From assembly GCA_001803235.1 (NCBI GenBank), contig MHBL01000140.1, positions 1 through 64,000 on the forward strand: a stretch of DNA of 64,000 nt, read 5' to 3'. Shown here piece by piece: positions 6,941 to 49,746 of this stretch (position 1 is its first letter; every line of letters starts with the position of its first letter). This DNA comes from Lentisphaerae bacterium RIFOXYA12_64_32. Lineage in GTDB: Bacteria; Verrucomicrobiota; Lentisphaeria; Oligosphaerales; YB12-FULL-65-16. A program made the translations under genes and the position numbers. The notes beneath the pieces are model-generated. The model ran no database searches. It was given only the letters and a program-made list of their open reading frames with translations, and was not told the DNA's origin.

Positions 6941-7030
6941 TTCAGTAATCAGTGATCAGTAATCAGTAATCAGTGATCAGTGATCGGTGATCGGTGATCG
7001 GTGATCGGTGTTTAGTGTTCGGTGTCGGGG
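6941..7030. repeat. Heptanucleotide tandem array between ruvA and ruvB
   Basis: About twelve consecutive units of the form ATCRGTR, drifting from ATCAGTA/ATCAGTG to ATCGGTG and then TTCGGTG. The period is 7 bp. The array lies just upstream of the ruvB start codon on the minus strand, so copy number could alter the spacing to upstream signals. No protein reading is convincing. Confidence 0.85.
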
Positions 7031-10695: not shown

Positions 10696-10750
10696 GTAAT
10701 GCGTCAGCGCCCCCCGGCCGGGCGCCCGGCGTCAACCGGTTTTGCGGTCA
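10696..10750 (+). mobile_element. Truncated copy of the GTAATGCGTCAG-ended element
   Basis: The first 22 bp are identical to the inverted end at 139-160. Homology fades after about 45 bp, and the fragment abuts the stop codon of the threonine aldolase gene (10753). No partner inverted end is visible, so this is probably a decayed or one-ended copy. Confidence 0.65.
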
Positions 10751-18489: not shown

Positions 18490-18602
18490 GAGACGAAGAT
18501 CAGAGACAAAGACTAGAGACGAAGATCAGAGACAAAGACTAGAGACGAAGATCAGAGACGAAGACTAGAGACGAAGATCAGAGACGAAGACTAGAGACAA
18601 AG
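18490..18602. repeat. 13-bp tandem array (GAGACRAAGAYYA)
   Basis: Roughly eight and a half units of 13 bp alternate between GAGACGAAGATCA and GAGACAAAGACTA, giving a 26-bp higher-order repeat. It lies in the promoter-side gap of the DUF4838 gene. Two or three related GAGACAAAGACCCA units recur at about 32920-32955, upstream of another glycosidase gene. Confidence 0.88.
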
Positions 18603-24858: not shown

Positions 24859-25105
24859 AGCCGCGGGCATGCGGTGGGGGCGAGCCGATCGGGCTGTCCC
24901 AGCTTTCATTTTCGGTGTTGAGTGTTGGACGTTCGATGTTGGGTGTTCGGTATTCTGACGGCTGTGGGGCTCGCCTCGAGAGACGCTCCGGAACAGGCGC
25001 AATCGTCGAGCAGGGGTGCACGGTTCGGGTGTCCGACCGGGCGTCGCGTGCACGGCGCGGCAGGACGGTCGTGCGGCGTCCGGGCTTAACGGCATTCGAT
25101 CCGGT

Positions 25106-26857
25106 ATGCGAAGACGTTCATCTAAGCCAACCGGCATTGCGGAATTTGTCCGGCCTTACGCGGGGGGGCTGGCGCTGCTGCTGTTTCTGACCGTTGTGCT
25201 GTCGGTCATCTCGATGTGCCCGCCGCTGATCACGCGCGCCATCATTGACCGGGTTCTGACTCGCGGCGACCACGCCCTGTTCGTGCCCTTGGCCTGCTGC
25301 ATGTTCGCCATCCCCTTGATCGGTGCGCTCTGTGGCTACATTCATACCATCGGCATCGCCTACATTGGGCAGCGCTTCGTCTTTGACGTCCGGATCACTC
25401 TGTTCGAACACCTGGTCGGGTTGTCGCTGCGGTATTTCGGCAAGAACAGCGTCGGCAAACTCAGCAACCGCTTGATGGGTGACACCGGTGTGGTGCAACG
25501 GGCACTGACCGCGCAGAGCATTTCCGTCGTATCCGACCTGATCTGCGCCGCATTTGCGATCACCGCCACCTTTGCCATCAACTGGCGCCTGGCCATACTG
25601 CTGACCTGCATTCTGGTCACGTTTGTGGTCAACTACCGTTTCACGATTCGCCGCATCCGCAAGGCGACCCGCGGTTACTGGGGCGCCATGGACCGGCTCT
25701 CGGGCAACATTCAGAACCGGCTGCACGGTACCCTGGCGGTGAAGACGTTCGGGACGGAAGGCCGCGAGCACTCATCGTTCCGCGAGGAATCCCAGGCCAG
25801 TCTCGGTTTGGCCCAGGAGTCCATGGTCGCCTCCAACACGTTTTCGATGAACACGGCACTGTTGGAGAGCATGGGTCGGACCGTGATGTACTTCTCCGCC
25901 TGCGCCCTGGTGCTGCGCGGCGAGCTGTCCTACGGCGATGTCATCGCGTTCCTCAGCTACGCCATGCAACTGCTGTGGCCGGCCATCCGCTTTTCGCAAC
26001 TCGCCAAGGAGTTCCAGGAGGTCGGCATCGCCACCGGCCGCGTGTTCGAGATTTTCAAGGAGGACCCGGAGATCCAGGACCGGCCCGGCTGCATTCCGGT
26101 CTCCCGCCTCCGCGGCCAGGTGGACTTTGACCAGGTCCGTTTTCACTACGAAGAAGGGAAACCTGTCCTGCGCGGCTTTGACCTCCACATCCGGGCGGGC
26201 GAGACGGTGGCTCTGATCGGTCCGACCGGCTGCGGCAAGACCACGGTCCTGTCGCTGCTCATGCGCTTCTTTGACGTCCGCGAAGGCCGGGTCCTGCTCG
26301 ATGGCATCGATATTCGCGATATCCGGATGCGGTCGCTGCGGCACCAGTTCGGCATCGTGCTGCAGGAACCGCTTCTCTTCTCCGTCAGCATTGCCGAGAA
26401 CATCCGCTATTCCCGTTCCAGCGCCACCCAGCAGGAAGTCGAGGACGCCGCCAAGGTGGCCGAGATTCATGACTTCATTGCCTCGCTGCCGGACGGCTAT
26501 CGCACCATCATCGGTTCCGAGGGTCTGGAGATTTCGGTCGGCCAGAAGCAGCGCATCACCATTGCCCGGGCGGTCGTGGCCAATCCTGCCATCCTGATCA
26601 TGGACGAAGCCACCAGTGCTCTGGACAGTGACTCGGAGCAGGCGATTCAGCGCGCCATGGCCCGTGTTCTGGTGAACCGTACGTCGTTTATCGTCGCCCA
26701 CCGGCTGAGCACGATCCGCAACGCCGACCGGATCGTTCTCATCAAGGAAGGACAGATTTTCGAGATGGGCACGCACCTGGAACTGATGGAACGACCGGAC
26801 GGCCAGTACCGCGGACTCTACCTCAAGCACATGGGGTCGGGCGTACTGGAGGAGTGA
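25106..26857 (+). CDS. ABC exporter half-transporter, signature-degenerate subunit
   Basis: A 583-residue fused permease-ATPase. Six membrane helices (about 15-330) precede the nucleotide-binding domain. Walker A GPTGCGKT is at 372-379, Walker B ILIMDE has the catalytic Glu501, and the switch His532 is in VAHRLS. The ABC signature is abnormal: ISVGQ (about 476-480) replaces LSGGQ. The next gene has the opposite pattern. In heterodimeric exporters such as TM287/288 this combination makes one dead and one active ATP site, so the two are partners. The ATG at 25106 gives a usual length; a start at 25016 is possible. The cargo is unknown. Confidence 0.92.
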   Translation: MRRRSSKPTGIAEFVRPYAGGLALLLFLTVVLSVISMCPPLITRAIIDRVLTRGDHALFVPLACCMFAIPLIGALCGYIHTIGIAYIGQRFVFDVRITLFEHLVGLSLRYFGKNSVGKLSNRLMGDTGVVQRALTAQSISVVSDLICAAFAITATFAINWRLAILLTCILVTFVVNYRFTIRRIRKATRGYWGAMDRLSGNIQNRLHGTLAVKTFGTEGREHSSFREESQASLGLAQESMVASNTFSMNTALLESMGRTVMYFSACALVLRGELSYGDVIAFLSYAMQLLWPAIRFSQLAKEFQEVGIATGRVFEIFKEDPEIQDRPGCIPVSRLRGQVDFDQVRFHYEEGKPVLRGFDLHIRAGETVALIGPTGCGKTTVLSLLMRFFDVREGRVLLDGIDIRDIRMRSLRHQFGIVLQEPLLFSVSIAENIRYSRSSATQQEVEDAAKVAEIHDFIASLPDGYRTIIGSEGLEISVGQKQRITIARAVVANPAILIMDEATSALDSDSEQAIQRAMARVLVNRTSFIVAHRLSTIRNADRIVLIKEGQIFEMGTHLELMERPDGQYRGLYLKHMGSGVLEE

Positions 26858-26930
26858 GCGCGGAGCGCGGAGCACGGAGCGCGGAGCACGGAGCACGGAG
26901 CACGGAGCTAGGGAGCTAGGGAGCAGGGAG
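26858..26930. repeat. Heptanucleotide tandem array (AGCACGG)
   Basis: About ten units of AGCGCGG, AGCACGG and AGCTAGGG follow the stop codon of the first ABC gene directly. The period is 7 bp with an occasional 8. It lies between two genes whose products should work as a dimer. Confidence 0.85.
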
Positions 26931-27000: not shown

Positions 27001-27177
27001 TGAGCCCCGTAATGCGTCAGTCGCGGGTGGACGGTTGGGCGGTAGGTAGATGGCCAACGTGGCGGGAGCGGTTCGCTCCCGCGGGTGTCGGAGCGAGCCG
27101 CTCCGACCACTTTAGGCGTCAGCCCAGGTCAAACTTCGACCTTATCTCCACCCGCAACTGACGCATTACTGAGCCCC
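27001..27177. mobile_element. Complete 161-bp non-autonomous element with 8-bp target duplication
   Basis: Terminal inverted repeats of 23 bp (27009-27031 and 27147-27169, one mismatch) begin GTAATGCGTCAGT. They enclose the two-hairpin module also seen at 14076. Both sides carry the same 8 bp, TGAGCCCC, at 27001-27008 and 27170-27177. This is direct evidence of transposition. The length excludes a transposase, so an unlinked one must have moved it. It sits between the two ABC half-transporter genes. Confidence 0.92.
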
Positions 27178-27215
27178 GGCCGCGTGTGGTTGACAGGGCA
27201 TCGGTGACGGCAGGT

Positions 27216-29192
27216 ATGAAGGCACACCATCGCAAAATACCGTTTCGCCCCCCGGCCAAGCGTTACGACGTGAAGGTCAGCCGGGCCGGTTTGTTGCTCC
27301 GGTTCCTGCGCTGCTACGTGAAGCCGCACCGCTGGTCGATCCTGTTCTGCATTCTGCTGAGCGCGCCGCAGGTTTGCTCGGTCTACCTGATGTCCTACTA
27401 CGGCCGGATCGTCGTGGATCGCATCCTTGTGATCACCCCGTCGGCGCCGGCGCGGCCGCCCCAGGTCGGGGCGGAAAATTACCGTGTCTGGACCGATGAG
27501 AGCAAACGCGTGGGTGGGGCCAGCCTGCCGGGAGAGAGTCAGGGGCGTCGCATCGACATGGGGGTTGCCGCCTCGGCCCGCCCGCCCGGGGCGGGAATCA
27601 TGCTGCTCACGGTCTTCATCCTCTACGCCACCACCCTGATCGGGCTGAATTTCCTGGGGCGCGCGGTGCAGCAGCGCCGGATCCGTGTCGGGCGCCAGAT
27701 AGCCGGGCATCTTCGCGAGGACATGCACGAGAAGATCCTCAGCCTGTCGATGTCGTTCCACAGAGCTCACAGCCCTGGCCGGCTCCTGTCCCGGATCCTC
27801 TCCGATGTCGAGGTGCTGCAGCAGCAGTTGGTGGATACCATCATGATGGTCAGCAACACGGTGATCATGATCTGTACCGGCACGGTCATCCTGCTGACCA
27901 TTGACTGGAAGATTTTCCTGTTTGTGGTCGCCACCGCGCCGGTGTACGCCGTCATGTATCGCTACGCTTCGGAGGTCATCCGGGAGATCAGTTTGGAACT
28001 CCGCCACACCAATACCTGCCTGTGGGGCTTCGTGTCGCAGAAGTTCGACGCCCTCAAGGCCGTGCAGGCCTACGGCCGTGAACGGCTCGAACGGCTCAAC
28101 TTTCACCGGTTGACCTCCTGCTTCCTCCGTGACGCACTGCTGCAGCAGCGCGCTTCGGCCGGCCTGGGCCGATCGGCTGGGATTGTCGGTTCCGCGGCCA
28201 CGACGACGATTTTCCTTTTCGGCGCCACCCGTGTCATGGCGGGGCGGATGACGTTGGGTGAGATGCTTTTCAGCTACTCCACCGCCGCCAGCCTGTTCGG
28301 GCCCGTGCTCGAGTTGGCCCAACTCAACCTGATTTTTGCCAACCTCGGCGTCACCATGCAGCGTGTCGCCGACATTCTCGACACCCCGTTGGAGATCACC
28401 GATGCCCCTGATGCCGTCGAGTTCCCCAGCCCCGTGAAGCGTGGCTTCAGTCTGCAGCATGTCGCCTTCTCCTACGACCCGGAGAATGAGGAGGTGGAAT
28501 CGGTCCTTACCGACGTGAACCTGCACATACCCGCCGGGACGTGGCTGTGCGTCATGGGACCCAGCGGTTCGGGGAAGACCACCTTGCTGTACCTGCTCTC
28601 CCGTCTCTACGAGCCGACCCATGGCAGCATTCTGGTCGATGGTATACCAATGAAGAAGATCAAGACGGATTCGCTCCGCATGCGCATGGGGTTCGTGCCT
28701 CAGGAGGCGAAGATTTTCAGCGGTACGGTGCGCGACAACATCTGCTATGCCTACCCCGACGCGCGCCCCAAGCAGATCATGGCTGCAGCCAAGGCGGCCG
28801 AACTCCACGATTTCATTATGGACATGCCGGTGCAGTACGAGACGATCATTGGCGAGAAGGGCACGACGCTGTCCGGCGGCCAGCGCCAGCGCCTGTCCCT
28901 GGCCCGGGCCCTGCTGACCAGCCCCGAAGTGCTGATCCTCGACGACTGCACGTCGGCCCTGGACGCTGACACGGAAGGCAAGATCCAGACGACCCTGGCC
29001 ACCATCCTGGAGGGCAAGACGGCTGTCATTGTCTCGCAGCGCGTTTCCATGGCTAGGCGCTGCCACAAGATCTGCGTGGTCGACAACGGAGTCATCACCG
29101 AGTACGGTACGCACGATGAACTGATCGCCCGCGGCGGCTTCTACTCTGTCCTGCATGCCCAGCAGACCGAACTGCCGCCGGTCATTTCGTGA
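27216..29192 (+). CDS. ABC exporter half-transporter, Walker B/switch-degenerate subunit
   Basis: A 658-residue fused permease-ATPase. An insert of about 70 residues (about 80-130, ASLPGESQGRR region) separates the first two membrane helices and should lie outside the membrane. The ATPase domain has Walker A GPSGSGKT (448-455) and a canonical LSGGQ signature (about 552). Walker B ends in Asp577 where Glu is needed (LILDDC), and the switch His is Gln608 (VSQRVS). These defects complement the ISVGQ signature of the preceding subunit. The ATG at 27216 is preferred over one 10 codons upstream because the upstream codons abut the transposable element. The gene ends the operon. Confidence 0.93.
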   Translation: MKAHHRKIPFRPPAKRYDVKVSRAGLLLRFLRCYVKPHRWSILFCILLSAPQVCSVYLMSYYGRIVVDRILVITPSAPARPPQVGAENYRVWTDESKRVGGASLPGESQGRRIDMGVAASARPPGAGIMLLTVFILYATTLIGLNFLGRAVQQRRIRVGRQIAGHLREDMHEKILSLSMSFHRAHSPGRLLSRILSDVEVLQQQLVDTIMMVSNTVIMICTGTVILLTIDWKIFLFVVATAPVYAVMYRYASEVIREISLELRHTNTCLWGFVSQKFDALKAVQAYGRERLERLNFHRLTSCFLRDALLQQRASAGLGRSAGIVGSAATTTIFLFGATRVMAGRMTLGEMLFSYSTAASLFGPVLELAQLNLIFANLGVTMQRVADILDTPLEITDAPDAVEFPSPVKRGFSLQHVAFSYDPENEEVESVLTDVNLHIPAGTWLCVMGPSGSGKTTLLYLLSRLYEPTHGSILVDGIPMKKIKTDSLRMRMGFVPQEAKIFSGTVRDNICYAYPDARPKQIMAAAKAAELHDFIMDMPVQYETIIGEKGTTLSGGQRQRLSLARALLTSPEVLILDDCTSALDADTEGKIQTTLATILEGKTAVIVSQRVSMARRCHKICVVDNGVITEYGTHDELIARGGFYSVLHAQQTELPPVIS

Positions 29193-49352: not shown

Positions 49353-49746
49353 TGCTTGGGGTAATGTGTCAGCACCCCCCGGGCGGGGACCGCCCGATCA
49401 TACCCTGCGGGTTACTGACCGGTTCGCGCCGCCACGGGCCTTGTGCCCGTGGGGCGTCGATTGGGAGCGGGGAATGGCCCGTCAGTAACATGGAAGTCGC
49501 GGGTGGAATGACTGCGTGCTGGCCCATGCGTGAGACCCCCGTGGCCTTGTGCCACGGGTGAATCGGATTCGCCCGCCAAACGTGCGTGTCCCCCCTCTCT
49601 TCCCTTTCCCCCGTCCGCCGCCGGCGGACGGGGGAAAGGGGAGAGAGGGAACGAGGTGCGGCGAAGTAGCCAATGAACCCGTTCACCTGCCACACGAGGT
49701 GGCAGGTGTCTGTGCTCCACCCTTAGCTGACGCATCACTGGTTGGG
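49353..49746. mobile_element. 378-bp element with GTAATG ends and near-duplicate flanks
   Basis: The ends are GTAATGTGTCAGC (49361-49373) and its near complement (49726-49738, two mismatches). The flanking octamers are TGCTTGGG (49353) and TGGTTGGG (49739), a 7/8 match that fits an ageing 8-bp target duplication. Inside are a 63-bp palindrome (about 49590-49652), a CACCTGCCAC hairpin (49684-49708) and the GATTGGG module. No protein is encoded. It fills the gap before the M48 protease gene. Confidence 0.85.

Follow-up and report, generated by a model that had tools for sequence, protein, structure and literature searches.

The window, i.e., the whole stretch of 64,000 nucleotides analyzed here (contig MHBL01000140.1 of Lentisphaerae bacterium RIFOXYA12_64_32), contains two co-directional ABC exporter genes, upstream of which an outer-membrane efflux protein and an HlyD-type protein are encoded. 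The first exporter gene (25016–26857) has its stop at 26857, and the second starts at 27186 (GTG) or 27217 (ATG) and ends at 29192. Between them lies a 161-bp element with inverted ends (Table 1). A tandem array of a 7-base unit (GAGCACG, repeated about 10 times, 26856–26930) directly follows the stop of the first exporter gene, and TRF reported further tandem arrays in the window at 18490–18602 and 6942–7028 with periods of 26/13 and 7/21. The Pfam domains of both flanking genes are near-complete, so that it was fair of a preliminary description of this DNA to place the element in an export operon without breaking its genes. At this site, the element is probably carried along neutrally and leaves the exporter operon readable.

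The inverted ends have a length of 23 bp and match at 22 of 23 positions, and the same arms were returned by an inverted-repeat finder. For two given 23-mers, the chance of at least 22 matching positions is about 1e-12, the flanking octamer being left out of this count. The octamer TGAGCCCC is present on both sides as a perfect 8-bp duplication, and the ends and the duplication had thus been described exactly before. The element contains no ORF of at least 100 amino acids, and its length is too small for a transposase. Most other complete copies are 157 bp long; the window element exceeds them by 4 bases, which lie in its left half.

Table 1. Coordinates of the element and of related members in the window.
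Feature	Position	Strand	Sequence	Remark
Left target-site duplication	27001–27008	.	TGAGCCCC	
Left terminal inverted repeat	27009–27031	+	GTAATGCGTCAGTCGCGGGTGGA	First 12 bases 404 times in genome
Whole non-autonomous element	27009–27169	+		161 bp
Internal palindrome 1	27062–27082	+	GCGGGAGCGGTTCGCTCCCGC	
Internal palindrome 2	27087–27107	+	GTCGGAGCGAGCCGCTCCGAC	Core of 31-mer with 97 genome matches
Right terminal inverted repeat	27147–27169	-	GTAATGCGTCAGTTGCGGGTGGA	As read on the - strand
Right target-site duplication	27170–27177	.	TGAGCCCC	
Second family member	49361–49738	.		378 bp, mixed ends, each one mismatch from GTAATGCGTCAG
Family member cut by contig start	1–160	-		Exact end at 149–160, mixed-type interior

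The second member in the window is flanked by TGCTTGGG and TGGTTGGG, which match at 7 of 8 positions. At 10696–10707, an exact end stands alone, with no second end to pair with.

The own assembly is a draft of 10.64 Mb in 503 contigs. Of 416 candidates, 40 were scored, and all 40 are copies with 85–100% identity, including the one in the window itself and at least two partial ones. Many copies are 93–96% identical to the window element, and they are spread over many contigs with different flanks. The 31-base core occurs at 97 places (at most 2 mismatches; reversed control 0), whereas the 12-bp end GTAATGCGTCAG is present in 404 exact copies (reversed control 1) and the end extended by one base, GTAATGCGTCAGT, in 157 (control 1). 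The excess of the 12-mer end over the core indicates that the element is part of a much larger set sharing this 12-bp end. Several contigs of the draft stop inside family members, and 13 of 100 listed class-1 ends are at most 80 bases away from the start of a contig.

Target duplications were analyzed in 54 own-genome pairs of neighboring convergent ends lying 40–600 bp apart with at most 2 mismatches per end. This sample is non-random, as it combines the 30 closest copies of the window element with places from contig lists, which mostly cover C1–C130 and, for class-1 ends, include some contigs as far as C260. In 28 of these pairs, the flanks match as an 8-bp duplication at 7 or all 8 positions, and the duplication is perfect in 23, compared with 567 of 54000 (1%) when the flanks were re-dealt. 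Four further pairs match on a one-base shift, three of them reading as 9-bp repeats, and the remaining 22 show no duplication. All 28 octamers of the duplication-bearing pairs are different from each other, and the octamer is therefore not part of the element. The objection that identical flanks might accompany the copies, raised together with the preliminary reading as a MITE, is removed by this, and the MITE reading itself holds for a multi-copy, non-coding element with inverted ends whose target duplication varies by locus.

The position between two co-directional genes and a very stable predicted foldback (−101.5 kcal/mol, z −10.1) would also fit a conserved structured RNA or a transcript-processing hairpin in the operon, which would tune the downstream exporter gene. 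However, inverted ends of 23 bp by themselves make any foldback stable, and copies of the element occur on many contigs with different flanks. In an alignment of 22 copies, a two-sided change was detected in only 3 of 51 pairs (covariation term 0.13), one of which is a G-C to C-G swap common to 4 copies. Rfam gave sub-threshold matches only, the best reaching 30.1 bits where the gathering score is 168; a match to MIR1437 was rejected as far under the threshold. A selected RNA thus finds no support and is regarded as highly improbable, while an effect of the element on the downstream gene is possible.

The MITE family is modular. The lengths of the 28 duplication-bearing elements range from 51 to 447 bp, with one unreliable value, as the assembled sequence of the 222-bp member L043 2540–2761 contains a stretch of N; for the same reason it was rejected as a nested insertion. 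Two subterminal end types were distinguished. Type 1 has the continuation seen in the window element (TCGCGGGTG...), and type 2 runs into a GC-rich hairpin (CGCCCCCGGGCGG...). Sorting by these motifs assigned 15 of the 28 elements to type 1 at both ends, five to type 2 at both ends and five to a mixed class, with one end unassigned in the other three. Several interiors are combined with the two end types. The 51-bp element L217 looks as if both ends of L211, a member of 206 bp, had been joined at a CCGG which they share, and this likeness of the end sequences suggests that an interior may have been lost by slippage between hairpins. At L178, L181, L192, and L217 (C37, C38, C70, and C122), hairpins of 51–55 bp were observed in which two ends are joined; their duplications are 8 or 9 bp long. 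Furthermore, a CCTTCGACAAGCTCAGG-like stretch or its reverse complement is found inside L052 2394–2578 and inside L040 near 2430–2480, which gives the impression of a small palindrome inserted into the interior of a family member. A 1.37-kb end pair (C180:1194–2559) was discarded as an autonomous copy; by eye, it consists of a deacetylase-like gene between two family members.

From the window alone, the preliminary description had rightly refrained from naming a transposase family; comparison with relatives now points to IS66. This family was a lead suggested by its GTAA ends and 8-bp repeats, and it was tested afterwards. The element shows IS66 traits in its GTAA-starting ends, in an end length of 23 bp, which falls in the range of 20–30 bp, and in its 8-bp duplication. 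Ends of the GTAA type together with 8-bp repeats are described for IS66 in two papers (PMC11946415, PMC12898284), and 8-bp repeats are also listed for the family in a table of a third (PMC3281130).

The 12-mer GTAATGCGTCAG is present in 90 of 387 genomes of the phylum, mostly once or twice. Outside the own genome, a clear excess was detected in G033 (20), G361 (18), G022 (17), G002 (14), and G391 (9). In G022, which matches Lentisphaerae bacterium ADurb.Bin082, a 2474-bp element (L168) is bounded on each side by GTAATGCGTCAGTGAAGCTG; its genes code for a DUF6788 protein and a DDE_Tnp_IS66 protein. A 2096-bp element in G361 (L248) has the same pair of DUF6788 and IS66 transposase genes and the ends (C/G)TAATGCGTCAGTCAGGTTTATTG, which begin with (C/G)TAATGCGTCAGTCAGG. 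Like the window element, this type has GTAA-type ends, and the first 12–13 bases are identical, but not the full 23; the subterminal bases differ after position 13, and the window element is without genes. Neither L168 nor L248 shows a target duplication. In 49 IS66 loci, the exact 12-mer gave 6 matches in 5 loci, with one end counted twice via the neighboring loci L168 and L170, whereas 200 shuffled 12-mers gave a mean of 0.005 matches and a maximum of 1; this enrichment test covered IS66 loci only. Inverted GTAA ends (16–20 of 20 positions) with a perfect 8-bp duplication were found in 9 of 48 IS66 loci of relatives by a search which imposed the GTAA start and whose ranking favored duplications without imposing perfect ones. 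In their 8-bp duplications, the window element and its IS66 relatives are thus alike. The PF03050 profile gave no match in G033, G002, and G391 despite their many ends. This result speaks against the IS66 link, as do the missing target duplications of L168 and L248 and the 22 of 54 own-genome pairs lacking one. Also in G022, two exact ends 3.6 kb apart (L130, G022:C38:12451–16035) enclose, as judged by eye, acyltransferase-like and amidohydrolase-like genes and have no flank repeat; they are perhaps two elements acting as borders.

In the own genome, the search with PF03050 identified a single IS66 transposase, located on C127. It was not retained as a partner, as only one poor end match within 3 mismatches was found there, which is no better than chance. 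The IS66 transposase of G022 as query had no match in the own assembly. Four DUF6788 genes are present, and they were rejected as partner markers because the exact end is absent from all four fetched loci. At the one locus whose neighbor was examined (L258, C192:9228–9518), DUF6788 adjoins a transposase-like ORF with DUF4277 and without an IS66 domain, and DUF6788 is therefore not confined to IS66 elements. Looking for the ends around a transposase gene, as had been proposed, was consequently negative in the own draft assembly, where no matching autonomous IS66 with these ends was found, and positive in two related genomes, which contain IS66 elements with the same 12–13-bp end. The window element differs in this respect from the L168/L248 type, as its autonomous partner was not found in the same genome. 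Multi-copy insertion sequences tend to be lost from draft genomes, and for this reason the missing transposase is weak evidence. Nevertheless, it speaks against a system that is active at present, as mobility today would require a partner in the own genome, whereas descent from IS66 does not.

The ISL3, IS256, ISAs1, and IS1595 families also make 8-bp duplications, and a MITE served by one of these or by another such transposase family has to be considered. The failure to find a fitting IS66 transposase in the own assembly speaks for this, as does an ORF on C127 near the lone IS66 gene, which we take to be ISL3-like. On the other side, two related genomes contain complete IS66 elements bordered by the exact 12-mer end, and IS66 loci show an enrichment of this 12-mer, which makes service by another family improbable.

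Taken together, the 161-bp element is very likely a MITE of the IS66 kind. In this case, the gene-less element would be recognized at its ends (GTAATGCGTCAG and about 11 further bases) by a DDE transposase of the IS66 family. Supplied in trans, the transposase would pair both ends and join them to staggered cuts 8 bp apart, and gap filling by host repair would leave TGAGCCCC on each side. We infer that an IS66 transposase moved the copy in the window.

A separate question concerns activity. The copies may no longer move at present and may all be relics of an old burst, in part mosaics from recombination or slippage between hairpins, which would be compatible with an IS66 MITE. The 22 of 54 pairs without duplication, the mixed end types, and the transposase not found in the own genome are in line with this. 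Against it, many copies are 93–96% identical to the window element and the duplication is perfect in 23 of 54 pairs, so that movement was not very ancient. Present immobility is considered a serious possibility, somewhat short of an even chance.

The 161-bp element was absent from 58 other, related genomes searched. A scan for the end pattern gave no match in a set of genome contigs, which may leave out the window's own genome, and none in viral contigs, and a search of plasmids for the element was also without a match. The present family resembles bacterial MITEs like Chunjie, Correia, and ERIC in being short and gene-less, in its inverted ends and target duplications, in a copy number between tens and hundreds, and in size variation, whereas its ends and its host group are different. 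For the Chunjie MITE of Geobacter, copies of 178–235 bp are described alongside numerous partial copies (PMC10969869), and the range of 51–447 bp together with the combining of end types is wider than the accessible part of that paper describes for bacterial MITEs. As far as the accessible parts of the sources go, ISDge4 of the ISBst12 group and the Frankia IS66 share the 8-bp duplications with the present family (PMC12898284, PMC11946415), and both, as well as ISPsko1, have GTAA-type ends (PMC12898284, PMC11946415, PMC12888890). Unlike the present elements, these three are autonomous, and their printed ends continue otherwise (GTAACTGCTCAGCA, GTAAGCG...); GTAATGCGTCAG differs from the printed IS66 start GTAAGCG from the fifth base onward. 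An IS66-derived MITE is not described in the portions available of the open-access literature searched, including PMC3189936, PMC12888890, PMC10969869, PMC9208149, PMC11946415, PMC12898284, and PMC3281130, and neither the present family nor its link to IS66 was found in these portions. The kind of object is already known, and the attribution to a family is what is added to the preliminary description.

For the modular forms, it may be supposed that two short GTAATGCGTCAG ends suffice for an IS66-type transposase to mobilize any DNA enclosed by them, irrespective of the subterminal bases, and that this extends to elements of 51–55 bp, which are hardly more than two ends joined together. This proposal is tentative and rather unlikely. 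If true, ends could pair anew without restriction, and a modular family of very small elements would result, explaining the mosaic forms.

With the attribution to IS66, the numerous miniature elements of an uncultured lineage related to Lentisphaerota receive a family name and are linked to IS66 of the DUF6788 type. The fragmentation of the assembly, too, is explained in part by this miniature family. A modest surprise lies in its size and modularity, members of 51–55 bp included, and these shortest forms may offer a means to probe the lower size limit of IS66 transposition.
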